From contig NZ_QGDO01000001.1 of assembly GCF_003149185.1 (NCBI RefSeq), forward strand, positions 992,001-1,056,000: DNA of 64,000 nucleotides, given 5' to 3'. The translations under genes and the position numbers were made by a program. Positions 41,818-57,095 of the stretch are shown one piece after another; the stretch's first letter is position 1, and every line of letters starts with the position of its first letter. The notes beneath the pieces were generated by a model that saw nothing but the letters and a program-made list of their open reading frames with translations, was not told the DNA's origin and ran no database searches. Origin of the DNA: Sediminitomix flava. Its GTDB lineage: Bacteria; Bacteroidota; Bacteroidia; Cytophagales; Flammeovirgaceae.

Positions 41818-43857
41818 TTATTCCGAATCAGTTTCTTTAGATTCTTCTTTTTTCACATCCTCTTTTACTTCTTCTACTGTCTCAGCACTTTGAGTAGCTT
41901 CTTTTTGCTCTTTAGCTTCAGTAAACTTTTGGTAAGTTGTCTTTTGCTCAAAAGGGCGTTGTCCGATTAACTTCTCAAGGTCTGATTGATAAAGAATTTC
42001 TTTATCCAATAGTTGCTGTGCCAAAATTTCAAGCTCTTGTCTCTTGCTGTTCAAAAGATCAATCGTTCTAGCGTAAGCGTCTTGAATGAACTTCTTCACC
42101 TCTTCGTCAATCTTTTCAGCTGTTGCTTCAGAATAAGGACGAGAACCGAATTCGCTACGGTTAGGATCATAGAATGAGACATGACCAATCTCTTTGTTCA
42201 TACCATAGATAGAGATCATGCTGTAAGCCATTTTAGTCGTTCTTTCCAAGTCACTTAAAGCTCCTGTAGAAATCTTCCCGAAGACAATTTCTTCAGCTGC
42301 ACGACCACCAAGTGTCATACAAATTTCGTCTAGCATTTGCTCTGTAGTGTGCAAGAACTGTTCTTTTGGCAAGTATTGGGCATATCCTAATGCTGCAACA
42401 CCTCTTGGTACAATACTTACTTTTACCAATGGATCGGCATGCTCCAAGAACCAACCTGCTACAGCGTGACCAGCCTCATGGTAAGCCACAATTTTCTTTT
42501 CATCTGGAGAAATGATTTTATTTTTCTTCTCAAGACCACCGATCACACGATCGATCGCAGCTTGGAAGTCTTCCATTTCAACCGCATTTTTCTCTTTACG
42601 AGCTGCAATAAGAGCTGCTTCGTTACAAACGTTGGCAATCTCAGCACCCGCAAAACCTGGTGTTTGAGCCGCAAGCTCTTTTGGTTTTACGCCTTCAGCC
42701 AACTTGATTGGCATAAGGTGTACCTTAAAGATTTGCTCTCTACCAATAATATCTGGTTTATCTACACTGATTTGTCTGTCAAAACGCCCTGGACGAAGAA
42801 GTGCATTATCCAATACATCAGGACGGTTAGTCGCTGCAAGAATAATTACACCCGAGTCAGTCGCAAAACCATCCATTTCTACCAATAGAGAGTTCAATGT
42901 ATTTTCTCTCTCATCGTTAGAACCTGGCATTTGCCCTTTTCCTCTTGAACGACCAATCGCATCGATCTCATCAATAAAGATAATTGCTCTACCTTTTTCT
43001 TTTGCTTGCTTGAATAAGTCTCTCACACGAGCAGCACCTACCCCTACAAACATTTCAACAAAGTCAGAACCTGAAAGACTGAAGAAAGGCACTCCAGCTT
43101 CTCCTGCTACTGCTTTTGCCAAAAGAGTTTTACCTGTACCCGGAGGGCCTACTAGTAGAACTCCTTTAGGGATTTTACCACCAAGATTAGTGTACTTCGA
43201 TGGGTTTTTAAGGAATTGAACAATTTCTTCAACTTCCTCTTTAGCCTCATCAAGACCTGCTACATCATTGAAGGTTATCTTAACTTTATTTTCAGCATCA
43301 AACAGTGCCGCTTTTGATTTCCCAATGTTAAAAATCTGACCGCCAGTACCACCGCCAGCCATACGACGCATCAAGAACCAGAAACCGAAAAGGAATGCAA
43401 TAATAATTGACCAACTCAAGAATTGGCTTCCTAATTCTCCACGATTGTTATCTGCCTTTACAATTACTTGTTTGTCTGCAGGAACATCCGCTTGAATCTG
43501 ATCTAGTTTTTCTAAGAACTGATTTGCATCTACAATTTGAAACGTAAAATGAGGACCATAAACGCCTGAGAAAGGACGATCATCTAACTGATCCTTATAC
43601 ATTGGCTTTTTGAATGCCTCTGTATCAAGAGTAACTTCTACAAAGTCTTTGTTTACAATGGTAATTTCTCTAACGTCTCCCTCTTTTACCATCTTTTCGA
43701 ACTCAAATAGGCTAATATCAGAGGCGGAGCCTTGGCTATTCATCCAAGTAATACCAAGTACACCGACAATGAGTGCCAATAACAACCAAACTTGAAAGTT
43801 GCCCTTTGGTGCGCTATTGGGGTTCACCCTATTGTTCTTTTTCGGATTTCCTGTCAT
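41818..43857 (-). CDS. ftsH: ATP-dependent zinc metalloprotease FtsH
   Basis: The 679-residue protein has two TM helices (about 21-39 and 148-163) around a short periplasmic domain. The AAA+ module carries Walker A GPPGTGKT (237-244), Walker B IIFIDEID and the second-region-of-homology RPGRFDRQ. The M41 protease domain has the zinc site HEAGH (460-464). The acidic, Lys/Glu-rich C-terminal tail (about 640-679) is common in Bacteroidota. It degrades membrane and unfolded proteins and LPS enzymes. It lies downstream of rsfS, 50 bp away, on the same strand. Confidence 0.97.
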   Translation of the reverse strand: MTGNPKKNNRVNPNSAPKGNFQVWLLLALIVGVLGITWMNSQGSASDISLFEFEKMVKEGDVREITIVNKDFVEVTLDTEAFKKPMYKDQLDDRPFSGVYGPHFTFQIVDANQFLEKLDQIQADVPADKQVIVKADNNRGELGSQFLSWSIIIAFLFGFWFLMRRMAGGGTGGQIFNIGKSKAALFDAENKVKITFNDVAGLDEAKEEVEEIVQFLKNPSKYTNLGGKIPKGVLLVGPPGTGKTLLAKAVAGEAGVPFFSLSGSDFVEMFVGVGAARVRDLFKQAKEKGRAIIFIDEIDAIGRSRGKGQMPGSNDERENTLNSLLVEMDGFATDSGVIILAATNRPDVLDNALLRPGRFDRQISVDKPDIIGREQIFKVHLMPIKLAEGVKPKELAAQTPGFAGAEIANVCNEAALIAARKEKNAVEMEDFQAAIDRVIGGLEKKNKIISPDEKKIVAYHEAGHAVAGWFLEHADPLVKVSIVPRGVAALGYAQYLPKEQFLHTTEQMLDEICMTLGGRAAEEIVFGKISTGALSDLERTTKMAYSMISIYGMNKEIGHVSFYDPNRSEFGSRPYSEATAEKIDEEVKKFIQDAYARTIDLLNSKRQELEILAQQLLDKEILYQSDLEKLIGQRPFEQKTTYQKFTEAKEQKEATQSAETVEEVKEDVKKEESKETDSE

Positions 43858-43906
43858 GTGTATCTATCTAAAGTGTATCTCAAGAAATTTCAATTAAAAA
43901 GAAAGC

Positions 43907-44284
43907 CTAATCTAGGTTTTCAAAACGAGTGACTTTGGCGTCACCCCATAAATCTTCCAAACCAAAATATTCTCGACGGCTTTTTTCAAAAATATGAACT
44001 ACAACGTTAATATAATCTAATATAATCCATTGTTTTTGCGTATAGCCTTCTCTATGATGCGGAAGCTCGTTTTTTGCAATTTTTATGATTTCCTCAACAC
44101 TATTCTGAATTGCATCCACTTGCGTATCGGTATTACCCGTAGCAATCACAAAAAAGTCTGCGACTGCATTTCCTGTCTTTCTCAAGTCAAGTAAAACAAT
44201 ATCCTTGGCCTTTTTCTCCTGCATCCCTTTCACCGCAAGTTCGGCAAGCTCTTTCGAGTCTAATTCAGTATTTTTTCTTTCCAT
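43907..44284 (-). CDS. rsfS: Ribosomal silencing factor RsfS
   Basis: The 125-residue protein has RsfS motifs: VLLDLRKTGNAVADFFVIATGNTDTQVDAI, the HHREGYTQKQWIILDY strand, and VVVHIFEKSRREYFGLEDLWGDA at the C-terminus (given in pieces). It binds ribosomal protein L14 and blocks subunit joining in starvation. It is divergent from birA, a pairing common in Bacteroidota, and probably shares a transcript with ftsH. Confidence 0.94.
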   Translation of the reverse strand: MERKNTELDSKELAELAVKGMQEKKAKDIVLLDLRKTGNAVADFFVIATGNTDTQVDAIQNSVEEIIKIAKNELPHHREGYTQKQWIILDYINVVVHIFEKSRREYFGLEDLWGDAKVTRFENLD

Positions 44285-44317
44285 TCTATTTTTTTAGAAA
44301 TCTTTCTAGCTATTGTG

Positions 44318-44325
44318 TAATTTTG
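44318..44325 (+). promoter_or_regulatory. -7 box of birA
   Basis: TAATTTTG fits TAnnTTTG exactly. It gives a leader of about 40 nt before the TTG start at 44372. The -33 element is weak. Confidence 0.4.
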
Positions 44326-44359
44326 TCTGATAGATAGTCAGTTGTTTTACCTATTCATA

Positions 44360-44391
44360 CAAAACTAAGAATTGTATAAAAACTTTACCAA
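44360..44391 (-). promoter_or_regulatory. Promoter of rsfS-ftsH
   Basis: On the minus strand TTG (44389-44391), 21 bp, then TAGTTTTG (44360-44367), 76 bp before the rsfS start. It overlaps the start of birA on the other strand, so the two divergent promoters interleave. Confidence 0.45.
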
Positions 44392-45148
44392 CACTTATTT
44401 CATTGGCAAAAAAGTAACTTATCTGCCAACTTGTCATTCAACCAATGACATCGCTTCCGAGATCATCCAAAAAGGAGAAGCTATCGATGGTCAATGTGTT
44501 ATTACCTCATACCAAACGAAAGGTCGTGGTCAACGTGGAAATTATTGGGAGTCGGAAGAAGATAAAAATATTATGCTCTCACTGATTCTCCGTCCGTCAT
44601 TCTTAACTGCCTACGAACAATTTCAACTTAATATAGCAATCTCTTTGGGCATTTTTGATGTTTTATACAACTATACTGGCGATGGCTTAACTTTAAAATG
44701 GCCAAACGATATCTATTTCAAGAAACAAAAGCTTTGTGGTATCTTAATTGAAAACTGTATTAAAGGTTCAAAGATTGACACCACAACTATTGGTATGGGA
44801 ATAAATATCAACCAGTGTAATTTTAACCATCCAGAAGCCATTTCTGTTTCTCAAATTACAGGGAAACTGTTCAATTTGGAAGAAGTAATTGCAGATTTAC
44901 TGAAAGGGATTGAAAAAAGATACTTTCAGTTACTCAACGGTAAAAAAGACCTACTCAAACAAGACTATTTGAGTAAACTACTGAATTACCAAGTGTTTGC
45001 ACAATACCTTGATATGAGAAAAGACCCACCAGAACCTTTTGAAGGAAATATTTTGGGGGTAAATGACAAAGGACAGTTAGCCGTACAAAGAACCAATGAA
45101 ATCGATTATTTCAACTTCAAAGAAGTGAAATTTGTTATTAACCGCTAA
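44372..45148 (+). CDS. birA: Biotin--[acetyl-CoA-carboxylase] ligase
   Basis: The 258-residue protein has the catalytic motif KGRGQRGNYWES (about 50-61), the HSTND substrate motif (22-26), LKWPNDI and KLCGILIEN. The N-terminal DNA-binding domain of E. coli BirA is absent, so this is a ligase only. Translation must start at a TTG, because no ATG precedes the conserved FIGKKVTYLPTCHSTND segment, which fits the family start. It attaches biotin to carboxylase carrier proteins. Confidence 0.93.
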   Translation: MYKNFTNTYFIGKKVTYLPTCHSTNDIASEIIQKGEAIDGQCVITSYQTKGRGQRGNYWESEEDKNIMLSLILRPSFLTAYEQFQLNIAISLGIFDVLYNYTGDGLTLKWPNDIYFKKQKLCGILIENCIKGSKIDTTTIGMGININQCNFNHPEAISVSQITGKLFNLEEVIADLLKGIEKRYFQLLNGKKDLLKQDYLSKLLNYQVFAQYLDMRKDPPEPFEGNILGVNDKGQLAVQRTNEIDYFNFKEVKFVINR

Positions 45149-45159
45149 ACTTTAATGAA

Positions 45160-45195
45160 AAAGTCATCCCAATTTACTTGAGATGACTTTATTTT
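45160..45195. terminator. Terminator between birA and thrC
   Basis: A 9-bp stem (AAAGTCATC with GATGACTTT, about 45160-45168 and 45182-45190) is followed by a T run on the plus strand. A matching A run on the left lets it serve both genes. Confidence 0.78.
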
Positions 45196-45213
45196 TTCAT
45201 ACCGTCTTAGAGA

Positions 45214-46527
45214 CTATTTTTGGCTCATTGCCATTTCTAGAAGATACTCTTTTAATTCAGAGAATTCTGTTCCCATAGAAATTGCTTGCTTTTCACGCTC
45301 AATCAATTCTTTCAAACGTTGAGGCATTTCAATTTCTTTGCTCAAGTTATCTTCAACTATATCTTTGAATTTCACAGGGTGTGCTGTTCCTAACACAATT
45401 CCTGTTACATCTTCTTTTGTTTCTTTCAAGTAATCTTCCAATCCGTAGTACCCAACGGCTGTATGTGGACACATTACATATGCTGATTCTTGGTAAACCT
45501 CTTTCATTTTTTCTAAGGTTTGCTCATCGTTATAAGCATAACCTTTGATTCTTGAAGATACTTTTTCGTAAGAGTCTTCATGAAGTGCCATCAAACGAGG
45601 GAAGTTACTAGGGTTACCCACATCCATTGCATTAGAAAGTGTCTTCACGGAAGGACGAGGAGTAAACTCCTTTGTTTTTAAGTAAGTCGGAACAATGTCA
45701 TTCGCATTTGTAGATGCGATAAACTGATGTATAGGTAATCCCATTCTTTCAGCAATCAATCCACCACAAAGGTTTCCGAAGTTTCCACTTGGTGTACAGA
45801 ATACGACAGGCTTACCCAATGCTTTTGTTTGTGCATAAGCATAGAAATAGTAGAATGATTGAGGAATCAATCTACAAATATTAATAGAGTTGGCTGAAGT
45901 CAAGTGTAAATGAGCATTCAACTCTTTATCCAAGAATGCCTCTTTTACCATTCGCTGACAGTCATCAAAGGTACCATCAATCTCAAGAGCTTTAATATTC
46001 TGACCGTTTGTTGTCAATTGCTGCTCTTGAATGAAACTTACTTTTCCTTTAGGATAAAGGATTGTCACATCAATGCCATCCATCCCTAAGAAACCTTGAG
46101 CTACGGCACTACCTGTATCTCCAGAAGTTGCCACTAGAATATGTACTCGCTCACCTTCTTCCAAATAATGTTGCATGATGCGCCCCATGAAACGCCCACC
46201 AAAATCTTTAAAAGCAAGTGTTGGCCCATGGAAAAGCTCTAAGACATGTTTGTTGTCTTTTACTTTTACGACTGGTGCATCAAAATTTACAGCATCATCA
46301 ATAATGGTTTTTAACTTATCCTCTGCTATATCATTTTGAAGCAATGTTTTTGCAACCTCGAAAGCAATTTCTTTGAAGCTTAAGTTTTCAATATTTTCAA
46401 AGAAAGAACTTGGCAGACTTGGAATTTCTGTAGGCATATACAAACCATTGTCTGCTGGAAGACCACGGAAAAGTGCTTCTTTTAAACCTACTTCTGGAAC
46501 CTGTTTATTGGTACTGTATAATTTCAT
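45214..46527 (-). CDS. thrC: Threonine synthase
   Basis: The 437-residue PLP enzyme has the lysine motif GPTLAFKDFGGRF (Lys107), the phosphate-binding VATSGDTGSAVAQG, and the class-I features of long bacterial threonine synthases. It turns phosphohomoserine into threonine. No thrA or thrB lies next to it. Confidence 0.95.
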   Translation of the reverse strand: MKLYSTNKQVPEVGLKEALFRGLPADNGLYMPTEIPSLPSSFFENIENLSFKEIAFEVAKTLLQNDIAEDKLKTIIDDAVNFDAPVVKVKDNKHVLELFHGPTLAFKDFGGRFMGRIMQHYLEEGERVHILVATSGDTGSAVAQGFLGMDGIDVTILYPKGKVSFIQEQQLTTNGQNIKALEIDGTFDDCQRMVKEAFLDKELNAHLHLTSANSINICRLIPQSFYYFYAYAQTKALGKPVVFCTPSGNFGNLCGGLIAERMGLPIHQFIASTNANDIVPTYLKTKEFTPRPSVKTLSNAMDVGNPSNFPRLMALHEDSYEKVSSRIKGYAYNDEQTLEKMKEVYQESAYVMCPHTAVGYYGLEDYLKETKEDVTGIVLGTAHPVKFKDIVEDNLSKEIEMPQRLKELIEREKQAISMGTEFSELKEYLLEMAMSQK

Positions 46528-46625
46528 AAAAAAGTCGTTAAGTTGAGCGCAACGTTAATTATCGATTTATCTAAATTACAATGAACACTAAAGCAGAGCT
46601 TTAGCAAAAGTGAAGATATGTTTCT

Positions 46626-47411
46626 CTATAGACCTAGTTTCTTAGCCTCATTCCACAAGGCATCCATATCTTCTAAAGAAACATCTTCAAATGATTTATT
46701 TTGTGCTATCAGCTGTTCCTCCACATAGTTGAAACGTCTGATAAACTTCTTATTCGTTTTCTCTAAAGCTGTTTCAGGATTTACATCTATGAATCGGGCA
46801 TAATTGATTAGAGCAAAAAGAAGATCGCCATATTCTTCTTCTGTTTTCTCGGTGTTTCCTGTTACTTCTATTTCGTGTTCGAGTTCTTTAATCTCTTCCA
46901 CTACTTTATCGAAAACATCTTTTCTTTTATCCCAATCAAAACCCACTCCGCTGGCTTTATCTTGAATTCTAATGGCTTTCAGAAGAGCTGGCTGAGATTT
47001 TGGAACACCTCCTAATACTTTCTTTTTTTTGTTTCCTTTCTCTTTGAGCTTTATCAACTCCCAGTTCCTTTTAACCTCTTCTTCATCTTGAACTTCTACG
47101 TCGCCATAAATGTGAGGATGACGTTCTACCAATTTGTCAGAAATACTATTCAATACATCTGTAATGGTAAAAGCCTCTTTTTCAGAACCTATTTTAGAGT
47201 AAAAAACAAGGTGAAGCATTAAGTCTCCGAGTTCTTTTTTCACCTCCTCCAAATCGCCGTCTAGTATAGCATCGGAAAGTTCATAGCTTTCTTCCAATGT
47301 CAAGTGACGAAGTGACTCCATTGTCTGCTTTCGATCCCAAGGACATTTCTCCCTCAACTCATCCATGATATCCAATAGACGCTCAAAAGCCTCTAATCTT
47401 GCATCTGCCAT
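46626..47411 (-). CDS. mazG: Nucleoside triphosphate pyrophosphohydrolase MazG
   Basis: The 261-residue protein has two MazG domains. The first carries CPWDRKQTMESL and EESYELSDAI, ELGDLMLHLVFYSKI (metal-binding Glu/Asp). The second, near 175-235, has VGFDW and EEYGDLLFALINYARF. It hydrolyses (d)NTPs to monophosphates, a housecleaning role. It stands alone, upstream of thrC by about 100 bp on the same strand. Confidence 0.94.
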   Translation of the reverse strand: MADARLEAFERLLDIMDELREKCPWDRKQTMESLRHLTLEESYELSDAILDGDLEEVKKELGDLMLHLVFYSKIGSEKEAFTITDVLNSISDKLVERHPHIYGDVEVQDEEEVKRNWELIKLKEKGNKKKKVLGGVPKSQPALLKAIRIQDKASGVGFDWDKRKDVFDKVVEEIKELEHEIEVTGNTEKTEEEYGDLLFALINYARFIDVNPETALEKTNKKFIRRFNYVEEQLIAQNKSFEDVSLEDMDALWNEAKKLGL

Positions 47412-47487
47412 ACTTTTTCTCCTAAATTTCCCTTATTTTGAATTAAGAATGCCGATGAATCCCGTAAATTCACGCTTAGTAAAGAAA

Positions 47488-47495
47488 CAAAGATA
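47488..47495 (-). promoter_or_regulatory. -7 box of mazG
   Basis: On the minus strand TATCTTTG fits TAnnTTTG exactly, 77 bp before the mazG start. Confidence 0.42.
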
Positions 47496-47590
47496 AAAAC
47501 TAGCTTGATACATTTTTAAATATATCAACAAATAATCCCTATTTATTGATAATTTTTTAAAATTTAAGCGGTGAAATAGATTATGTATTA

Positions 47591-48232
47591 ATGAGAGCGC
47601 GAATTTCTGAACAATTAGCTAAATATCTTCCAGCTTCAGCTGTCGAATTATGCACTGATTGGGTGATCAATTATAAAATTCAGGTAAAAGTAGCTGCTCC
47701 TCGTAGTACTAAAAGAGGAGATTACCGACACCCATTCCAAAATAGAGGGCATCGTATTTCAGTAAATGGAGATTTAAACCCTTACAGTTTCTTAATCACC
47801 TTCACACATGAAGTAGCTCATCTTATTGTTTGGAATAATCATAGAAACAGTGTTCTCCCTCATGGGCTAGAGTGGCAACAGACATTTGCTGAACTGCTCA
47901 GACTTCTCTTAAAGATGGATATCTTTCCTTCTGACATAAAAACTGCTCTTCTCAATTACATTAGAAAGCCAAAAGCATCTACTGCTTCCGATGCTGAATT
48001 ATTCAAAGTTTTAGAAAAATACGAAGAACCAGACCCTGCATTGGAAGGCTTAGAACTTTATTATGTAGAGGAATTGAACGATGGGACTATATTTAGAATG
48101 GAAAATGGGCGAATATTTAAAAAAATTCACAAGCTCAGAAAATATTTTTTATGTGAAGAAATCCCTTCAAAAAGCCTATTCAGAATCAATCCATTAGCCC
48201 GAGTGGTTGTCTGCGAAAATATGAATCATTAG
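47591..48232 (+). CDS. SprT-like zinc metalloprotease domain protein
   Basis: The 213-residue protein has the SprT core: the zinc motif HEVAH (with ITFTHEVAHLIVW), and a third ligand in PHGLEWQQTFAEL. The N-terminal region (about 20-80) is the usual SprT lead-in. The C-terminal half (about 115-213) is poorly conserved and lacks the Cys pairs of a zinc ribbon. SprT relatives cleave DNA-protein crosslinks, but this is unproven in bacteria. It is divergent from mazG, and the tRNA array begins 100 bp after its stop. Confidence 0.85.
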   Translation: MRARISEQLAKYLPASAVELCTDWVINYKIQVKVAAPRSTKRGDYRHPFQNRGHRISVNGDLNPYSFLITFTHEVAHLIVWNNHRNSVLPHGLEWQQTFAELLRLLLKMDIFPSDIKTALLNYIRKPKASTASDAELFKVLEKYEEPDPALEGLELYYVEELNDGTIFRMENGRIFKKIHKLRKYFLCEEIPSKSLFRINPLARVVVCENMNH

Positions 48233-48274
48233 GCCTGTATTGAACATTTTCAAGTAATAAAATAGAAAAATACA

Positions 48275-48306
48275 TTTGCCTAGTATTAAAAAAATCCGCA
48301 CCTTTG
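48275..48306 (+). promoter_or_regulatory. Promoter of the tRNA array
   Basis: TTTG (48275-48278), 20 bp, then CACCTTTG (48299-48306), one base from the TAnnTTTG consensus. It ends 27 bp before the first tRNA gene and is the only good promoter before the array. Confidence 0.6.
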
Positions 48307-48332
48307 CATCGCTTTTTACGAAAGCGATCAAC

Positions 48333-48414
48333 GCGGATGTGGCGAAATTGGTAGACGCACTAGACTTAGGATCTAGCGCCGCAAGGCGTGGGGGTTCGAC
48401 TCCCTCCATCCGCA
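48333..48414 (+). tRNA. tRNA-Leu(UAG), copy 1
   Basis: Acceptor GCGGATG pairs with CATCCGC, and the anticodon loop CTTAGGA reads TAG. A long variable arm (CGCCGCAAGGCGT) marks it as class II. The discriminator is A, and CCA is not encoded. Confidence 0.97.
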
Positions 48415-48425
48415 CATAATTACTA

Positions 48426-48498
48426 GGTGCTGTAGCTCAGTTGGTAGAGCATCGGACTGAAAATCCGTGAGTCGGTGGTTCGAATCCACTCAGCACCA
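48426..48498 (+). tRNA. tRNA-Phe(GAA), copy 1
   Basis: Acceptor GGTGCTG pairs with CAGCACC and the anticodon loop CTGAAAA reads GAA. The 73-nt body lacks CCA. The first anticodon-stem pair would be T:T in every copy. Confidence 0.97.
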
Positions 48499-48533
48499 CA
48501 AATGATCGTCTTCATAAAAAGCAGCCTTTTAAA

Positions 48534-48606
48534 GGTGCTGTAGCTCAGTTGGTAGAGCATCGGACTGAAAATCCGTGAGTCGGTGGTTCGAATCCACTCA
48601 GCACCA
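48534..48606 (+). tRNA. tRNA-Phe(GAA), copy 2
   Basis: Identical to copy 1 over all 73 nt. It is preceded by a 35-nt spacer. Confidence 0.97.
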
Positions 48607-48641
48607 CAAAATGGTCATCATATAAAAGCATTACTTTTAAA

Positions 48642-48714
48642 GGTGCTGTAGCTCAGTTGGTAGAGCATCGGACTGAAAATCCGTGAGTCGGTGGTTCGAA
48701 TCCACTCAGCACCA
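48642..48714 (+). tRNA. tRNA-Phe(GAA), copy 3
   Basis: Identical to copy 1. Its 35-nt spacer is related to but diverged from the one before copy 2. Confidence 0.97.
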
Positions 48715-48750
48715 CAAGATGATCATCATATTAAAAGCATTCTTTTAAAA

Positions 48751-48823
48751 GGTGCTGTAGCTCAGTTGGTAGAGCATCGGACTGAAAATCCGTGAGTCGG
48801 TGGTTCGAATCCACTCAGCACCA
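48751..48823 (+). tRNA. tRNA-Phe(GAA), copy 4
   Basis: Identical to copy 1. This is the last of the consecutive Phe genes. Confidence 0.97.
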
Positions 48824-48880
48824 CAAGTCTTTTTAGCAGCTTAAGACTAAAAACATAATCTGCGAAGCATTAGTAAAGAT

Positions 48881-48962
48881 GCGGATGTGGCGAAATTGGT
48901 AGACGCACTAGACTTAGGATCTAGCGCCGCAAGGCGTGGGGGTTCGACTCCCTCCATCCGCA
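48881..48962 (+). tRNA. tRNA-Leu(UAG), copy 2
   Basis: Identical to Leu copy 1. It begins the first of three near-identical Leu-Phe units. Confidence 0.97.
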
Positions 48963-48973
48963 CATAATTACTA

Positions 48974-49046
48974 GGTGCTGTAGCTCAGTTGGTAGAGCAT
49001 CGGACTGAAAATCCGTGAGTCGGTGGTTCGAATCCACTCAGCACCA
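48974..49046 (+). tRNA. tRNA-Phe(GAA), copy 5
   Basis: Identical to copy 1. It is only 11 nt after the Leu gene. Confidence 0.97.
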
Positions 49047-49103
49047 CAAGTCTTTTTGGCAGCTTAAGACTAAAAATATAATCTGCGAAGCATTAGTAAA
49101 GAT

Positions 49104-49185
49104 GCGGATGTGGCGAAATTGGTAGACGCACTAGACTTAGGATCTAGCGCCGCAAGGCGTGGGGGTTCGACTCCCTCCATCCGCA
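49104..49185 (+). tRNA. tRNA-Leu(UAG), copy 3
   Basis: Identical to Leu copy 1. It is preceded by a 57-nt spacer nearly equal to the one before copy 2. Confidence 0.97.
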
Positions 49186-49195
49186 CAAATTACTA

Positions 49196-49268
49196 GGTGC
49201 TGTAGCTCAGTTGGTAGAGCATCGGACTGAAAATCCGTGAGTCGGTGGTTCGAATCCACTCAGCACCA
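49196..49268 (+). tRNA. tRNA-Phe(GAA), copy 6
   Basis: Identical to copy 1, 10 nt after the Leu gene. Confidence 0.97.
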
Positions 49269-49324
49269 CAAGTCTTTTGGCAGCTTAAGACTAAAAACAT
49301 AATCTGCGAAGCATTAGTAAAGAT

Positions 49325-49406
49325 GCGGATGTGGCGAAATTGGTAGACGCACTAGACTTAGGATCTAGCGCCGCAAGGCGTGGGGGTTCGACTCCCTCCA
49401 TCCGCA
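49325..49406 (+). tRNA. tRNA-Leu(UAG), copy 4
   Basis: Identical to Leu copy 1. It opens the last Leu-Phe unit. Confidence 0.97.
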
Positions 49407-49416
49407 CAAATTACTA

Positions 49417-49489
49417 GGTGCTGTAGCTCAGTTGGTAGAGCATCGGACTGAAAATCCGTGAGTCGGTGGTTCGAATCCACTCAGCACCA
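49417..49489 (+). tRNA. tRNA-Phe(GAA), copy 7
   Basis: Identical to copy 1. It is followed within 20 nt by the array's terminator. Confidence 0.97.
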
Positions 49490-49505
49490 CTTTTAATAGT
49501 ATCGC

Positions 49506-49542
49506 GAGGCTATCTCATTTCATGAGTTAGCCTCTTTTTTTA
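49506..49542 (+). terminator. Intrinsic terminator of the tRNA array
   Basis: A long stem with one mismatch (49506-49518 with 49522-49534) and a three-base loop is followed by eight Ts. Confidence 0.92.
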
Positions 49543-49653
49543 TTTAAGCTCTAAAAGCTCAATTTTATTGACTTTATTTATAGTCTCTTTTTATCTATTA
49601 CACATCTTTTATAGACAAATCATTCACTATTCAATTCTTTAATTTCTATTGAT

Positions 49654-50343
49654 ATGAAAATTGTAGTCTTAACAGGAGCAGGCATAAGTGCTGAAAGTGG
49701 AATCCCTACCTTTAGGGCGTCTGATGGATTGTGGGCAGGATATGACATTAATGATGTGGCAACTTATGACGCTTGGAGAAAGGACAAAGAACTTGTCTTA
49801 CAATTCTACAATGAGAGAAGGCAAAATGCGAAGCAAGCAGCTCCAAATAAAGGACATTTACTTTTAGCCGAATTAGAGAAAAAACACGAAGTAACTGTCA
49901 TTACTCAGAATGTAGATGATCTTCATGAACGCGCTGGTTCGTCTAAAGTAGTTCATCTTCATGGCTCTTTATTTGAAGCCAGAAGTACACTCGATGAAAG
50001 ACTGGTTTATGATATAGAAGGGGATATTCTGATTGGAGATAAATGTGAAAAAGGCTCACAACTACGACCAAACATCGTATGGTTTGGTGAAGCTGTACCA
50101 ATGATCGAAAAAGCTGCAGAGATTACAGAAGAAGCCGACATATTTCTTATTGTTGGCACATCTATGCTTGTTTATCCTGCCGCAGGTTTGATTCACTCTA
50201 CCAAACAAGAGACTCCAATCATTGTAGTGGATCCTAACAAACCCGATATAGGCGGTGTGTTAGGGATTCATTTTATAGAAGAAAAAGCGAGTACAGGTAT
50301 GCTAAAAGCAATTGAAATTATAGATCAACTTTCTAAGAATTAA
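49654..50343 (+). CDS. cobB: NAD-dependent protein deacylase (sirtuin, CobB type)
   Basis: The 229-residue protein has the NAD-binding GAGISAESGIPTFR (8-21), TQNVDDLHERAG (84-95), the catalytic His103 in HLHGS, RPNIVWFGE and the GTSMLVYPA motif. Tyr52 and Arg55 (FYNERR) match the Tyr/Arg pair that lets class III sirtuins such as SIRT5 and E. coli CobB remove succinyl and malonyl groups. The four zinc cysteines expected between about 110 and 135 are not there; only one Cys remains (131). It is a single gene after the tRNA array. Confidence 0.92.
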   Translation: MKIVVLTGAGISAESGIPTFRASDGLWAGYDINDVATYDAWRKDKELVLQFYNERRQNAKQAAPNKGHLLLAELEKKHEVTVITQNVDDLHERAGSSKVVHLHGSLFEARSTLDERLVYDIEGDILIGDKCEKGSQLRPNIVWFGEAVPMIEKAAEITEEADIFLIVGTSMLVYPAAGLIHSTKQETPIIVVDPNKPDIGGVLGIHFIEEKASTGMLKAIEIIDQLSKN

Positions 50344-50653
50344 GCTAAACACAAGTAGGTGGGCATCTATTTCGAGATAAAACTTAACTGTTCTTAGAGT
50401 TTTTTCTCTAAGAACTCACAAATGGATAGAGAGGCGGAAGCAGTTCTTCAGACTCAAATTTTTAGCCAATTTTGAAGTCTAAAGACTCCAGCTTTCACCG
50501 AGAAATCCTTAGATCACTTCGTTAACTCTAAGGATAGCTACACTCGTTCTCTTTTGTCCTAGTACTGATCAGGTATATATAAAAAAACCTTCTATCAGAA
50601 ACTTTAAGTATTTCTAATAGAAGGGGTTTATTTTTGCTGTTCTCTTAAATTGG
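50344..50653. other. Intergenic region of 310 bp with a series of inverted repeats
   Basis: No gene is visible. Three consecutive palindromic segments follow cobB: a perfect 10-bp repeat around six Ts (50390-50399 with 50406-50415), an imperfect one (about 50448-50483), and a perfect 9-bp one (50505-50513 with 50527-50535). None has a good T run downstream except the first, whose loop is Ts. The symporter's terminator occupies the right end. Confidence 0.6.
50574..50623 (-). terminator. Intrinsic terminator of the sodium symporter gene
   Basis: A 14-bp stem with one mismatch (50587-50600 with 50610-50623) is followed on the minus strand by a T run (complement of the A run ending at 50586). 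Confidence 0.85.
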
Positions 50654-52117
50654 TTAACTCCTTAATTCTTTTCGACTTGACACTATCCAAAGTCCTATCA
50701 TTGTAAAGACTGCATTTACTAACAATATTTCAAAACCAAATTGGTATCCCCAGAACAACTCTTGTGAGTAAGTATTCAGTACCCAAGAAAGTAAGGGTGA
50801 TAAAATACAAATCAGAGGCACCCACTTATCTTTGATTACTCGTTTATTAGACAAACCGAATGCAAATAAGCCCAACAAAGGTCCGTAGGTATAACCTGCC
50901 ACCTTAAATACAGTAGTTACCACACTATCATCTTGTAGAATTCTAAAGATGACAATCACTGCAAAGACCAAGGCGGAGAAACCAACATGAACCATTCTGC
51001 GTACCTGCACTTCATGTTTACTTGGTTTATAGCTATGGTTTAAGAAATCTACACAGAAAGAGGTGGTCAGTGCTGTCAATGCAGAATCCGCACTAGAGAA
51101 AGCCGCAGCAGTAATCCCAAGTAAAAAGAGGATTGCAATACTTTCTCCAAAGTAATTCATGGCTAAAAACGGGTATATTTCGTCTGTTTTCGTAGGCAAT
51201 TGAATCTGAAAAGCATCACCATATTGATACAAGAGTACACCTAAGGACAAGAATAAAATAGTTGCTACAAAAAAGGCTAAAGAGAACCAAATGATATTTC
51301 GTTGGGCATCTTTCATAGAACGACATGTCAAGTTCTTTTGCATCACATTCTGATCTAAGCCATTCATTGCAATTGCTATAAAAACACCTGCAATAAATTT
51401 CTTCCAAAAGAAGTTCTTAGATCTCCAATCCCAATTGAAAATCGTGGATTCTTCTCTTGAAGAAATGCTTTGCCATAAATGATCAGACAATTCCAATTTA
51501 GAAGCTAAAAATACAATGGTTAATACAACTGCCGATAATAGAAAAAATGTTTGAAGGGTATCTGTCCAGACTATTGTTTTTATTCCTGATTTGTAAGTAT
51601 ACAACCAAATCAAAAGCAATGTCATTAAGACGGTCATCCAGAAAGGAATGCCAAAATGATCTGAAATGGCAATTTGAAGTACACTAGCTGCAAGAAAAAG
51701 TCGGAAAGAAGCTCCGATCGTTTGGGAAAGTAAAAAATAGAAAGAACCTGTTTTATAGCTAGACACGCCAAATCGTTCTTTCAGAAACTCATAAATAGAA
51801 ACCAATTCTAATCGGTAAAAAATAGGTATAAGTACCAAAGCAATAAGCCAATATCCAACTACATTACCCATGACAAATTGTAAATAATGCCATGACGAAT
51901 TCCCGACTTCACCCGGTACCGAAATAAAGGTTACACCCGAAAGTGAAGCTCCAATCATCCCGAAAGCAACCAAATACCAAGGCGATTTTCGATTCCCTGT
52001 AAAGAATGTAGCTTCATCAGAAGACCTACTCGTCCAGTATGAAATCCCCAATAAAAATAAAAAATAACATACAACCACTCCAATGGTTAAGCTTGGTGAA
52101 ATCTGTTGTAGCTCCAT
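50654..52117 (-). CDS. Sodium:solute symporter (SSS family)
   Basis: The 487-residue protein has about 13 TM helices. The family core is visible in GMIGASLSGVTFISVPGE (TM1-like, about 53-70), a GYTYGPLLGLFAFGL segment near 405 and AAAFSSADSALTALTTSFCVDF (about 325-346, the sodium-site helix). It imports a solute with Na+. It is the last gene of the operon with the NamZ-type muramidase, so a MurNAc or muropeptide-derived substrate is plausible but not shown. Confidence 0.9.
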   Translation of the reverse strand: MELQQISPSLTIGVVVCYFLFLLGISYWTSRSSDEATFFTGNRKSPWYLVAFGMIGASLSGVTFISVPGEVGNSSWHYLQFVMGNVVGYWLIALVLIPIFYRLELVSIYEFLKERFGVSSYKTGSFYFLLSQTIGASFRLFLAASVLQIAISDHFGIPFWMTVLMTLLLIWLYTYKSGIKTIVWTDTLQTFFLLSAVVLTIVFLASKLELSDHLWQSISSREESTIFNWDWRSKNFFWKKFIAGVFIAIAMNGLDQNVMQKNLTCRSMKDAQRNIIWFSLAFFVATILFLSLGVLLYQYGDAFQIQLPTKTDEIYPFLAMNYFGESIAILFLLGITAAAFSSADSALTALTTSFCVDFLNHSYKPSKHEVQVRRMVHVGFSALVFAVIVIFRILQDDSVVTTVFKVAGYTYGPLLGLFAFGLSNKRVIKDKWVPLICILSPLLSWVLNTYSQELFWGYQFGFEILLVNAVFTMIGLWIVSSRKELRS

Positions 52118-52174
52118 AATTAAAAATTAGATTAGAAGTATTTTATGTTTGTTTGTCAATTCTAAAAAGTCGGA

Positions 52175-53383
52175 CTAATTAGGGTAAAGAAGGTATTTTT
52201 CTCTCATCTGATTGTAAGCTGCAAGGTCAGAAGTCCAAGAATCTTCAATTTCTTTTAAAGAAGTTCCCGACTCTATTTGCTTCCTCAATACATCTGTACC
52301 AGCTAATAAATCCATAAACTTCGGACGATCTATAAATTTCTCATGCCCTAGACTATCCATTTTTTGATACCAATCCATAAAATAAGAAAGCGTAAACTTA
52401 GCGTCTCCAGAATTGCGAAGATCTAGCCCATAACACTTTTTATCTTGAAGTTTCGGATACATAGACGCTCCTTTTATTGGAATAGGTGTAAAGCTAAAAT
52501 CACCAAGATTTTCATCGGGATAGCCAATAACTTGAAAAGGGAAATTTGTACCTCTACCAATACTTACCACTGTAGGCTCAAAAAAGCACAAAGACGGATA
52601 AAGTCTGATCGATTGATGATTTGGAAGATTTGGTGAAGGTTTAATAGGAAGAATGTATTGCTTCTGATGGTCGTAATTTTGGACTTTTACAACTTCTAGG
52701 TCACATTTAGCTTCTGTTTCCATCCAGTTTTCCCCATTGATCATTTGCGCAAGCTCGCCAACTGTAAGCCCATGTACTACAGGTATGGGTACAATCCCTA
52801 CAAAAGATTTGAAATCGGGATTTAAAATAGGGCCTGCGGTATAGTCTCCTAATGGATTTGGTCGGTCTAAAATGAGTAGTTTTTTCCCTTGCTCGGCACA
52901 AGCCTCCATTACATAATACATGGTACTTATGTAAGTATAGAATCGAACTCCTACATCTTGGATGTCAAAGATGACTAGATCAATATCTTTCAACATCTCA
53001 ATAGAAGGCTTTTTCAGCTTTCCATAAAGAGAAATAATAGGCAAACCTGTTTCAGGGTCAAGACTGTCATTTACTTTCGCACCTGCATCAGCTTTTCCTC
53101 TAAAACCATGTTCTGGGGCAAAAATGGTTTTGATTTTTACTCCACGACTTAGTAAAGTATCGACAAGATGTGTTCCATCCACTACTGAGGTGTGATTCAC
53201 AACTAAAGCTACCTTTTTTCCTTCAAGAGAAGGGAGATAAACATCTAGCTGATCTGCTCCACAAATAATCTCAGACTCACGTTCGTCAGTGACCTCTACC
53301 GTAGCTCTATTTTTTGTTTGCTCTTGACAAGCCCAACCCAAAAAAGAGAAAAGACTTAGTACAAACAGTAATTTCGTATACAT
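52175..53383 (-). CDS. namZ: Exo-beta-N-acetylmuramidase NamZ-type (DUF1343, GH171)
   Basis: From the ATG at 53381-53383 the protein has 402 residues and a signal peptide ending in FLGWAC, a weak lipobox, so it may be a lipoprotein. The DUF1343 motifs are all present: VALVVNHTSVVDG, IFAPEHGFRG, LVIFDIQDVGVRFYTYISTMYY, DRPNPLGD, VPVVHGLTVGELA, and SPNLPNHQSIRLYPSLCFFE with GRGTNFPFQVIG. The family releases terminal MurNAc from peptidoglycan fragments. A longer start at 53452 would overlap the upstream gene and lose the signal. Confidence 0.9.
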   Translation of the reverse strand: MYTKLLFVLSLFSFLGWACQEQTKNRATVEVTDERESEIICGADQLDVYLPSLEGKKVALVVNHTSVVDGTHLVDTLLSRGVKIKTIFAPEHGFRGKADAGAKVNDSLDPETGLPIISLYGKLKKPSIEMLKDIDLVIFDIQDVGVRFYTYISTMYYVMEACAEQGKKLLILDRPNPLGDYTAGPILNPDFKSFVGIVPIPVVHGLTVGELAQMINGENWMETEAKCDLEVVKVQNYDHQKQYILPIKPSPNLPNHQSIRLYPSLCFFEPTVVSIGRGTNFPFQVIGYPDENLGDFSFTPIPIKGASMYPKLQDKKCYGLDLRNSGDAKFTLSYFMDWYQKMDSLGHEKFIDRPKFMDLLAGTDVLRKQIESGTSLKEIEDSWTSDLAAYNQMREKYLLYPN

Positions 53384-53396
53384 GTGTTTTCGAAAG

Positions 53397-54320
53397 CTAT
53401 TGAACCATAAAATTGGACTCTCCGATTTTAGACTCTTTAGAATAAAGCTCAACTGTATATTTACCTTTAACTAATAATGTTCGGGTACAGTCAAGGCCAA
53501 ACTCATTATTCAAAGTATTCGGATATTCAATTTTTTTCTTGTCGGTATAAAATAGCTCCTTCTCCTTCACCTTAAATTTACCAGATGAATTCTGCTGATA
53601 AATCACAGCTCCTCCTGGCTCAATAAGTCTGAGAATAATTTCTTTCGGCCCTTGATCAATCAGTGGGTTTTGTTCGAGTGTAAATAGAATTTTGATCAGT
53701 TCAGTTTTTCTAGGGTTGAAAACATCTGCGTCAAAGAAACTGCCTTTGTTATTTTTACCCGTAAACTGAATAGCTGTCGCTCTCAAAATAGAAGCTTCCT
53801 CTACTAATTGTGTCAGATGACTATTTTCAGATTCCAACTCTTTGATTTGAGCCTTCATATTACTTTGAGCAATTTTCAATGAATCATTCTCATCTGTCAG
53901 TTGCTGGAATCTATGATTTAAGGATAGGATATCTTTTTCTTTTTGCAATAGAAGGGCTTCGTAGTGCTGAACTTTCAGCCTGATATTTTCAAATTCTTCA
54001 GAAGTGAGGTTTTGTGAGACTTTTAGGGTTTGCTTTTCTTTCTCCAAATCTTCCTTAATCATCATCAGCGCATCCACATTTCCATTAAGTTCCTCAATTT
54101 CTCTGATTTTGGCATGAAGTTCATTCGAGATAGAGTCTAATTTATCATAGGTGTTAACAAGCTCTAGCTCTTTGTTTACAAGTATCTTTTCATCCTCTAA
54201 CTGAAGATAATCATTATAAAACCATTGCATTCCATTAATGAGTAATAATACTGCAATTAGTAGAATCAAAATATTGGTTTTTCCTTTAACAATTTTCTTA
54301 TCCTCTTGATTAGTCTTCAT
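53397..54320 (-). CDS. Single-pass membrane coiled-coil protein
   Basis: The 307-residue protein has one TM helix (about 16-33), a long coiled coil (about 40-180; heptads rich in Glu/Leu/Lys), and a C-terminal beta-rich domain (about 195-307; IKILFTLEQNPLID, then KGKYTVELYSKESKIG). I do not recognise the family by name. The TM anchor and large extracytoplasmic part place it in the periplasm. It starts the operon with namZ (14 bp away) and the symporter, so it may organise that cell-wall function. The role is unknown. Confidence 0.65.
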   Translation of the reverse strand: MKTNQEDKKIVKGKTNILILLIAVLLLINGMQWFYNDYLQLEDEKILVNKELELVNTYDKLDSISNELHAKIREIEELNGNVDALMMIKEDLEKEKQTLKVSQNLTSEEFENIRLKVQHYEALLLQKEKDILSLNHRFQQLTDENDSLKIAQSNMKAQIKELESENSHLTQLVEEASILRATAIQFTGKNNKGSFFDADVFNPRKTELIKILFTLEQNPLIDQGPKEIILRLIEPGGAVIYQQNSSGKFKVKEKELFYTDKKKIEYPNTLNNEFGLDCTRTLLVKGKYTVELYSKESKIGESNFMVQ

Positions 54321-54545
54321 ACTTTATTATGTTTAAAAACATAAACATTAGAAGTTCACCTCTCCCATGCTTCCCAAAAAAGTCTTTTTTCTTAATATCA
54401 GTATTATTTAAGATACTTCTACTGTATATAACTAAGAAATGAATCCACAAATTATATTGATAAGTAGTATCTTCCAAAAGCTTTTCGAAATCCTTCAAAA
54501 ATTACTTATAAAAAGTCATATTCAGCTCAAGTTAAATAGAATAAC

Positions 54546-55682
54546 ATGAATATCTTAATTGCCATAGACAGCTTTAAGGAATGTTTGAATTCTTCCGAAA
54601 TATCAGAAGCTATTGCTACAGGCATCTCTAAAGTGGATAGCTGTATTTCTATTACCCAAAGAAGCTTAGCTGATGGTGGTGAAGGAACTTTAAATGCGTT
54701 TAATGACAGTTTAAAAAACAGAGTTAAGCTATCGACACTCGATCCTCTCGGACGAAGAATCGATGCTGAATATGGAATTCTAAAAACTAACACCGTCATC
54801 ATTGAACTAGCACAAGCTTCGGGTTTGGAGTTACTTACCAAAGAAGAACAAAACCCTCTGATTACCTCTACTTTTGGAACAGGTTTGCTCCTAAAAAAAG
54901 CAATAGAAGAAGGATATCGCAATTTTATCATTGGCTTAGGAGGAAGTGCTACAAATGATGCAGCTACAGGTTTATTGAAAGCTCTTGGGTTTCAATTTCT
55001 AGATCATGACAAATCAGTCATCGAAAAAGAAGGTGGGCAAATTTTGGAAAGCATTTGCTACATAGATAATTCTCAAGTGATTGAATATTTAGATGAATGT
55101 ACTTTCACACTTGCTTGTGATGTTCAAAACCCTTTCAGTGGAAAAAATGGTGCTGCATATATTTTTTCACCTCAAAAAGGTGCAACAAGAGAAGACGTTG
55201 AAATACTTGATCGAGGTCTGGTTTCTTTTTCAGAAGTCATTAAAAAAGAAATTGGAATTGACATTAATCCGATTGAAGGTGCTGGCGCTGCTGGTGGAGT
55301 TGGAGGAGGATTAGTCGCATTGCTCAATGCAAAGATCAAATCGGGAATTGAGCTAATTATTGAGAATATAGGCTTAGAAGAGCATATAAAAAACGCAGAT
55401 TTGGTTTACACAGGAGAAGGTAAATTAGACAAACAAACCTTGCAAGGTAAAGTACCTGTCGGAATTGCTAAAATCTGTATGAAACACAATACACCTGTCA
55501 TCGGAATTGGAGGGGTAATTGACCTTGATGCTATTGAAGGATTAAATCAACATTTTACAGCATTATTTTCCATTCAAACAGAACCTTGTTCAAAAGAACT
55601 TGCGATGCAGCCAGATTATGCAAAACAACGATGTGAAAATATCGGAATGCAAAGTTTTAAATTAGTCAAAGCATTTAAGTAA
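54546..55682 (+). CDS. glxK: Glycerate kinase (GlxK family)
   Basis: The 378-residue protein has the glycerate-kinase I motifs: DSFKECLNSSEISEAIATG near the start, LADGGEGTLNAF, the glycine-rich FIIGLGGSATNDAATGLLKALGF (about 120-140, in pieces), and the C-terminal TGEGKLDKQTLQGKVP. It phosphorylates D-glycerate in glyoxylate or serine breakdown. Its end is only 7 bp from the end of the convergent DUF1835 gene, leaving no room for a terminator. Confidence 0.93.
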   Translation: MNILIAIDSFKECLNSSEISEAIATGISKVDSCISITQRSLADGGEGTLNAFNDSLKNRVKLSTLDPLGRRIDAEYGILKTNTVIIELAQASGLELLTKEEQNPLITSTFGTGLLLKKAIEEGYRNFIIGLGGSATNDAATGLLKALGFQFLDHDKSVIEKEGGQILESICYIDNSQVIEYLDECTFTLACDVQNPFSGKNGAAYIFSPQKGATREDVEILDRGLVSFSEVIKKEIGIDINPIEGAGAAGGVGGGLVALLNAKIKSGIELIIENIGLEEHIKNADLVYTGEGKLDKQTLQGKVPVGIAKICMKHNTPVIGIGGVIDLDAIEGLNQHFTALFSIQTEPCSKELAMQPDYAKQRCENIGMQSFKLVKAFK

Positions 55683-55689
55683 GCTCATG

Positions 55690-56613
55690 TTATTTATCTA
55701 AAGTCTCAGTCATCGGATTGTATGAATAGTCATCGGCTGGAAAAGGGTAATCTTTCATCTTATCGAAAATAAATTTCTCTCCATTCAACACTTTAAGACC
55801 AAGCTCATTCAAAGAAACCTCTTCATCTTTTTGATCAAAAAACACAGCTAACTTATCCATATAATTGAAATACTGAAGATCACCTAAACCATATTGATCT
55901 TTGGTCAAAAGCATTTCTCGGACAATTTTCCTATCGGGTATTCCATTATGTTTCTGAACAAAAGTCAGCATCGAATTTTCTAACTCACTTAAACCATTAA
56001 CTACCGATGGATACCTCTTCATTTGAAGTTTGAGCGCTGGAATTAAGTATGGAAAACTAAGCTTGCACTCATTTTCTAAATTAAAAATAGCTTTATAGTC
56101 TTGTGCTAAATAATACTTCCAAACTCTTGAAATAAGCTGAAGGTCAGCCATAGAAATTTCAAGGCTGTTACTCATTAATTTTGAATATGCTTTAGGAGAA
56201 AAATCACTCAGTGTCTTCCATTTATTTTCTGATTCATCATAGCCCGTACAAATCAATTGAAGGCTTACTCCCTCCTTTAAATTTTCAGCTATGAAAGCCA
56301 AAACAGCTAGCATATTCATCTGACAGAATAAATCATACTCAAACCATAAATAAACCTGCTGATAATCATTTATATGATGCAGATTCTTAAATGTCTCACT
56401 GCTTTTTGCTACATATTCTAGTGCATCAACCTCAAAGTAATCTTGAAAGAAATTTGATCTCATTTCCCAAAATGGACGATCAAAAAGTTTTTTACTCAAT
56501 GGCCCATCGCACAATACTTCTCGACAAACACAAATATCTCCTTCAATCGCTGTTTGCTTGAAAATTTCAGCAGTAGAATCTCCATTAAGAATATGTAGTG
56601 TTGTCTGTTTCAT
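55690..56613 (-). CDS. DUF1835 domain protein
   Basis: The product has 307 residues from the ATG at 56611-56613, which follows the upstream stop by 5 bp; an earlier Met at 56631 would overlap the upstream gene. The N-terminal DUF1835 pattern is LHILNGDSTAEIFKQ, then REVLCDGPLSKKLFDRPFWEMR. A C-terminal helical DUF3658-like region (about 210-300) follows. Function is unknown; it is usually cytoplasmic. It is co-transcribed with the 158-residue unknown protein. Confidence 0.75.
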   Translation of the reverse strand: MKQTTLHILNGDSTAEIFKQTAIEGDICVCREVLCDGPLSKKLFDRPFWEMRSNFFQDYFEVDALEYVAKSSETFKNLHHINDYQQVYLWFEYDLFCQMNMLAVLAFIAENLKEGVSLQLICTGYDESENKWKTLSDFSPKAYSKLMSNSLEISMADLQLISRVWKYYLAQDYKAIFNLENECKLSFPYLIPALKLQMKRYPSVVNGLSELENSMLTFVQKHNGIPDRKIVREMLLTKDQYGLGDLQYFNYMDKLAVFFDQKDEEVSLNELGLKVLNGEKFIFDKMKDYPFPADDYSYNPMTETLDK

Positions 56614-56618
56614 AAGGC

Positions 56619-57095
56619 TTATTTTTTCCAACGATTAAAAACAATATCTGAAATGTATTTTGGCTCATAAAATGCAAATTCGGCAAATTCGATATCAGCC
56701 AAATCTTTTACTAACTGAACACAAGTAGGATGATGTCCGTTGACGGGAGTTTCAAGAGTAGCTTTTGAAAGTACTTTTACAGATTTCTGAAAAAATGCTT
56801 CCACCAACTCTGGAATATCCAAAAACTCAAAACTTCCAAAGTTATTTTTGGAAATAGCCATCACAGGAAAATATTTATGACTCAACAACAACAAAGCGAC
56901 ATCATCATACTTAAACTTCACCAAAATATAGGTATGATCACTGCTTTGCCGATCGATTACAGCTTTTGAAAAATCAATTTTAGAATCTGTAAATACTTGT
57001 TGAAGAAATTTATCTAGATCAAAAGGTTCCTTTTCGTAATCTTGCGGGAAAAATCCTGATATGTAGGTTGGCAAAGGTTTTTCAAAAACTTTCAT
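56619..57095 (-). CDS. Uncharacterised 158-residue protein
   Basis: I do not recognise this protein. It has no signal peptide, TM helix or known motif. It shows a mixed alpha/beta pattern (TYILVKFKYDDVALLLLSH), a HHPTCVQLVKDLA helix, and a basic C-terminus (FNRWKK). It begins a two-gene transcript with the DUF1835 gene, 5 bp away, so the two probably act together. Confidence 0.55.
   Translation of the reverse strand: MKVFEKPLPTYISGFFPQDYEKEPFDLDKFLQQVFTDSKIDFSKAVIDRQSSDHTYILVKFKYDDVALLLLSHKYFPVMAISKNNFGSFEFLDIPELVEAFFQKSVKVLSKATLETPVNGHHPTCVQLVKDLADIEFAEFAFYEPKYISDIVFNRWKK

Follow-up and report, generated by a model that had tools for sequence, protein, structure and literature searches.

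Why does a bacterium hold eleven tRNA genes of only two kinds side by side, and does the arrangement answer to a particular need? The question is raised by a locus of Sediminitomix flava that lies in the window, the whole 64,000-nucleotide stretch of contig NZ_QGDO01000001.1 that was analysed. The features of the locus are given below; each tRNA gene was placed by ARAGORN, Rfam and exact comparison.

47591-48232, + strand: SprT-like gene, upstream neighbour and marker of the common locus in relatives (open reading frame; weak Pfam match)
48275-48306, + strand: putative promoter of Bacteroidota type, TTTG (48275-48278), 20 bases, CACCTTTG (48299-48306) (motif position and recurrence)
48333-48415, + strand: tRNA-Leu(UAG) copy 1
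48426-48499, + strand: tRNA-Phe(GAA) copy 1
48534-48607, + strand: tRNA-Phe(GAA) copy 2
48642-48715, + strand: tRNA-Phe(GAA) copy 3
48751-48824, + strand: tRNA-Phe(GAA) copy 4
48881-48963, + strand: tRNA-Leu(UAG) copy 2
48974-49047, + strand: tRNA-Phe(GAA) copy 5
49104-49186, + strand: tRNA-Leu(UAG) copy 3
49196-49269, + strand: tRNA-Phe(GAA) copy 6
49325-49407, + strand: tRNA-Leu(UAG) copy 4
49417-49490, + strand: tRNA-Phe(GAA) copy 7
49506-49541, + strand: predicted intrinsic terminator, hairpin (49506-49534) followed by a T run (folding and sequence)
49654-50343, + strand: Sir2-family (CobB-like) gene, downstream neighbour (open reading frame and domain match)

A sequence-only reading of this DNA had described eleven tRNA genes of two kinds, identical by eye within each kind. 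Both points hold. ARAGORN and Rfam RF00005 (60.3 or 74.2 bits) return the same 11 genes, which all lie on the + strand, span 48333-49490 and have no others elsewhere in the window, and exact comparison gives a single sequence for the four Leu(UAG) copies and another for the seven Phe(GAA) copies. From 5' to 3' the genes run L F F F F L F L F L F (L, Leu; F, Phe), 11 of them in 1158 bp, and CCA is not encoded at the gene ends. Open reading frames read across 41818-56631 place SprT-like, MazG and Sir2-family genes in the flanks. The Pfam match of the SprT-like gene is weak (E 0.00019, 21.7 bits, below the family cut-off of 25.6).

The array is read as one predicted transcription unit, since a single promoter motif lies upstream, none is present in the ten spacers and a strong terminator follows. 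The motif TTTG-N20-CACCTTTG (48275-48306), upstream of the first gene, is one that we take to be the Bacteroidota primary-sigma consensus. A relaxed form (TTG, 18-23 bases, [TC]A, 2 bases, TTTG; within 100 bases upstream of a tRNA locus) is present at 21 of 30 tRNA loci, which comprise the 18 multi-gene loci of the genome and 12 single genes, and absent at 9, against 0.22 expected from base shuffles. It recurs in 2 of 73 tRNA spacers of the genome (0.04 expected) and in none of the 10 spacers of the Leu-Phe array. The terminator after the last Phe gene folds at -17 kcal/mol (z -5.1 against 200 shuffles). In sequence motifs the array thus has the layout of an operon, with a promoter before the first gene, a terminator after the last and none between. 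All 10 Phe arrays examined, that of the window and those of relatives, have TTTG-N19/20-CAnnTTTG upstream and a T run downstream. A separate arrangement is seen in G001, where the spacer between two Phe genes (L182, G001:C1:2820500-2826500) resembles a terminator hairpin plus a promoter-like TTTTGCATCA stretch, which would fit duplication of a complete transcription unit.

The high local dosage of two isoacceptors had been regarded as unusual, a view that the rest of the genome does not bear out. The draft (6.60 Mb, 39 contigs) holds at least 103 tRNA genes among the best 150 of 591 candidates scored. The Leu-Phe array is not special within its own genome, because 91 of these genes sit in 18 multi-gene loci (ARAGORN on fetched stretches), many of them tandem arrays of one kind. 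Among the loci are Val x9, Thr x7, Asn x5, Asp x4, Met x4 and x3, Leu(CAA) x4, Pro x3, Ser x3, Gln x3, Trp x2, His x2, Lys x6 (with one Leu(GAG)) and Glu x6 (L038, which contains 110 Ns). Besides the array of the window, mixed loci are Gly-Tyr, Ser-Pro-Arg and Gly-Leu. Among the tRNA matches listed, 17 of 26 anticodons (CAT counted as one) have at least three gene copies, and Phe is no outlier once its share of codons is taken into account. All seven listed Phe genes sit in the array, as do four of the six listed Leu(UAG) genes; the remaining two Leu(UAG) genes stand alone on other contigs and match the array copies exactly. Identity within a kind is not universal. In multi-gene loci, 13 of 22 same-kind groups are all identical and 9 have more than one sequence, for example Arg(UCU) with three sequences in four copies. 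Leu(CAA) at L042 (G000:C1:306000-306900) has four sequences in four copies, in contrast to the array of the window. A 16S gene was not found in the 39-contig draft by a search that also missed it in 5 of 14 control genomes.

The spacers record the order in which the array grew. Start-to-start distances between successive Phe genes are 108, 108, 109, 223, 222 and 221 bp, in line with the two duplication layers proposed from the sequence, a Phe step of 108-109 bp and a Leu-Phe step of 221-223 bp. Likeness differs by layer. Phe-Phe spacers are alike in 28/36, 28/36 and 31/36 aligned columns, Phe-Leu spacers in 54/56 columns in all three pairs, and Leu-Phe spacers in 9/10, 10/10 or 9/9. The Leu-Phe layer is the younger, since its Phe-Leu spacers are so much more alike than the Phe-Phe spacers; the earlier suggestion that this unit expanded last is thereby supported. 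Eight of the ten spacers are distinct sequences. A candidate origin for the inverted repeat of the Phe-Leu spacer, derivation from a Flammeovirga-like Phe-Phe spacer, was rejected; the alignments fell within the range of shuffles and the spacer folded no better than shuffles. The sequences around both solo Leu(UAG) genes were compared by eye for a donor of the Leu gene; the likeness there was too short and AT-rich to point to one.

Relatives place the Phe part of the array on an older footing than the Leu part. Across 118 genomes of the order, counts of an exact Phe pattern exceed 2 only in the genome of the window (G000, 7), G010 (7) and G002, G008 and G012 (4 each), all of the same family. 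The pattern recovers the 7 genes of its own genome; zeros elsewhere may be sequence variants, and one of the two matches in each of G037, G041, G070, G075, G089 and G121 looks like chance. A search of 18 family genomes recovered the SprT-like gene in 15. A Phe array adjoins it in 11 of these 15 (G000, G002, G003, G008, G010 and G012-G017), with 2 to 7 Phe copies in the relatives, and no tRNA lies beside it in G001, G004, G007 and G011. The Phe array is older than the genome of the window, to judge from its place next to this gene in 11 of those 15. The arrays of the Flammeovirga-like relatives share with the window the locus by the SprT-like gene, the promoter layout and the tandem Phe(GAA) genes. 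Their units measure 107-112 bp in genus g3 and 137-153 bp in G003. They differ from the window in lacking the Leu gene, and in the relatives read the downstream neighbour is not a Sir2-family gene. Near the Sir2-family gene that in the window is the neighbour of the Leu-Phe array, G010 and G013 have His tRNA arrays of 3 and 2 copies (L185 and L186).

A Leu(UAG) gene next to a Phe gene was found in none of the 17 family relatives, whose listed Leu(UAG) genes number one each and two in G003; ten Leu loci were read, eight of them from relatives. An exact pattern for Leu(UAG) just upstream of Phe matched one of 198 sampled Bacteroidota genomes, that of the window, in a sample that holds no other member of the family and with a pattern that misses variants. 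What is peculiar to the genome of the window is that a Leu gene joined the Phe array and was then amplified as a Leu-Phe pair. The array is thus not the same in all close relatives, a point on which its reading as an expanding array depended: the Phe part occurs in some with other copy numbers, the Leu part in 0 of 17. In six relatives, with the best 150 candidates scored in each, there are at least 42 (G001), 83, 83, 89, 89 and 125 (G003) tRNA matches, and the excerpt of PMC8653839 gives 86, 91 and 99 tRNA genes for three complete Flammeovirga genomes. Literature searches found no paper naming these arrays, which is not proof of absence from print.

The sequence-only reading had also offered a recombining array with copies kept uniform, and this fits the variable number of Phe copies at the locus and their grouping by genome. 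Among 43 Phe copies from 10 of the 11 locus arrays (G015, whose array is split between contigs, was left out), two copies differ on average by 0.18 within an array and by 3.18 across arrays, a contrast reached by 0 of 2000 label shuffles, which ignore phylogeny. Acceptor pair 5:68 is C-G in all seven copies of the window, A-T in all copies of G002, G010, G012 and G017, T-A in all copies of G003, G013, G014 and G016, and mixed in G008. G010, G017 and G013 have nearly one leader, yet the pair differs throughout. One of the four Phe copies of G002 is deviant. Since copies are alike within arrays and different between species, the Phe genes are taken to evolve in concert, with greater likeness within than between genomes. 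As the locus is common to relatives, the copies of each genome would have changed together or been re-amplified; in these data, gene conversion and re-amplification of a single copy would leave the same pattern. Chimeric Phe copies occur in G008 alone, where pair 5:68 runs T-A, A-A, A-A, A-T along the array. They resemble the products of recombination within the gene, but we give them little weight because that genome is a draft in which several Val and Lys copies have odd single changes. The A-A mismatch Phe copies and the odd Val copies of G008 (L176, L228) could be recombination in progress or draft errors. Val arrays are uniform in the genome of the window (9/9) and in G003 (8/8) and mixed in G002, G008, G012 and G014. 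Lys arrays are silent on concerted evolution, because the one Lys sequence found in 5 of 6 arrays read is also shared across genomes.

A demand for Phe and CUN-Leu codons had been suggested as the reason for the array. Codon use was taken from 267 open reading frames (110,623 codons) in the window and 18 other 20-kb stretches, part of the genome, and compared for 17 amino acids with 95 tRNA genes. Met, Ala and Ile were left out, because genes with a CAT anticodon belong to more than one tRNA and the 103 listed matches include neither an Ala nor an Ile(GAU) gene; one weak Gln match (34 bits) was entered as a gene. Gene number follows amino acid use, both in the sampled frames (Spearman 0.65, p 0.005) and in a highly expressed set of seven ribosomal proteins and DnaK (1,896 codons; Spearman 0.74, p 0.0007). 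Phe has 7.4% of these tRNA genes and 6.1% of the codons of the 17 amino acids, a ratio of 1.21 that ranks eighth highest of 17. With its gene share so near its codon share, no special demand need be invoked, and generally high tRNA dosage is enough to account for the array. One figure counts against a dosage reading specific to Phe: Phe makes up 3.5% of the 17 amino acids in the highly expressed set, half its tRNA gene share.

Comparable arrays are known. The array resembles, and is probably the same kind of thing as, the E. coli K-12 cluster lysT-valT-lysW-valZ-lysY-lysZ-lysQ (NC_000913.3, 780554-781652), which likewise has two kinds only (5 Lys, 2 Val), a repeated Val-Lys pair, one strand and a position between chromosomal protein genes. 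Like that cluster, the array of the window repeats two kinds of intact tRNA gene in tandem, all on a single strand. The E. coli cluster differs in its 7 genes against 11, its other isoacceptors and its unrelated flanks, cpoB and nadA. Within the family, a locus of G003 (L233, G003:C9:1453800-1455400) also alternates copies of a Leu gene with another tRNA, in the order Lys, Leu(GAG), Lys, three Leu(CAG)-Lys pairs, Lys. Unlike the window, it combines Lys with Leu(CAG) and one Leu(GAG), and its three Leu(CAG) copies are not identical.

We propose that the array is very probably a housekeeping multi-copy tRNA operon, in which an old Phe array was joined by a Leu gene, the Leu-Phe unit was amplified, the copies were homogenised and the dosage was selected. 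One promoter would give a long transcript of 11 tRNAs, cut by the usual tRNA-processing enzymes and supplied with CCA afterwards. The starting point, as the shared neighbours show, was a Phe array downstream of the SprT-like gene, common to Flammeovirga-like relatives. In the lineage of the window, as the spacers show, a Leu(UAG) gene then entered and the Leu-Phe unit was amplified in tandem. Unequal recombination or gene conversion may shift copy number and keep the genes identical while spacers drift, consistent with copies that group by genome. Extra tRNA genes born by duplication have been observed in the laboratory, according to the excerpt of PMC7661048. The copies probably persist through selection for high tRNA dosage in an organism with some 100 tRNA genes. 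The 9 of 22 same-kind groups with more than one sequence, and the mixed Val arrays of some relatives, speak against uniform homogenisation.

Purifying selection alone, with no recombination between copies, might also keep copies identical; tRNA genes are strongly constrained, and the two solo Leu(UAG) genes match the array copies. We consider this unlikely, given that the Phe sequence varies from species to species, with the change at pair 5:68 carried by all copies. It is slightly harder still to credit that the array meets an exceptional need for Phe and CUN-Leu codons, such as an abundant class of proteins rich in both would create. The seven Phe genes are the joint top count among the 118 genomes of the order, and the Leu-Phe pairing occurs in no other of the 198 phylum genomes by exact pattern. 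Against this, Phe ranks only eighth of 17 when gene share is set against codon share, amplification extends to many other tRNAs, and both codon groups are rarer in the highly expressed set (2.8% of all codons each) than in the sampled frames (5.1% for Phe, 4.5% for CUN-Leu).

An assembly artefact, in the array or in its exact copy number, is very improbable. The copy number does rest on a 39-contig draft whose Glu array contains the 110 Ns; but 8 of 10 spacers are distinct, so the copies are not a single unit that the assembler repeated, and G002, G012 and G014, assembled into 2 to 4 contigs, have comparable Phe arrays at this locus. We see next to no chance that this is a mobile tRNA array as on phages or plasmids, possibly with an anti-defence role. 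The tRNA array units of mycobacteria and phages described in the excerpt of PMC5966550 have a similarly high gene density, and 11 genes in 1.16 kb exceed the 2 per kb of their definition there. That definition also requires 20 or more tRNAs, above the 11 found here, and those units, which are associated with mobile elements, span many isotypes. The array, by contrast, carries the only Phe genes among the tRNA matches listed for the genome, lies between SprT-like, MazG and Sir2-family genes and occupies a locus common to relatives. A plasmid search with the array returned tRNA genes of other bacteria only, and none of the records covered 80% of the query at a single site.

The housekeeping operon stays our preferred reading. 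A broader idea, which we hold as speculative and rather doubtful, is that Flammeovirga-like bacteria have much of their tRNA gene set in tandem arrays that recombination turns over fast, with Leu genes repeatedly entering and being amplified as two-kind units (Leu-Phe in the window, Lys-Leu in G003), so that strain-variable dosage dials would tune translation. The Leu-Phe array itself offers a clear natural case of growth in a tRNA gene set, in which an old single-kind array received a newcomer gene and the pair was amplified, the genes staying identical as the spacers drift. Nothing in it calls for a new mechanism, and the family provides material for timing such steps.
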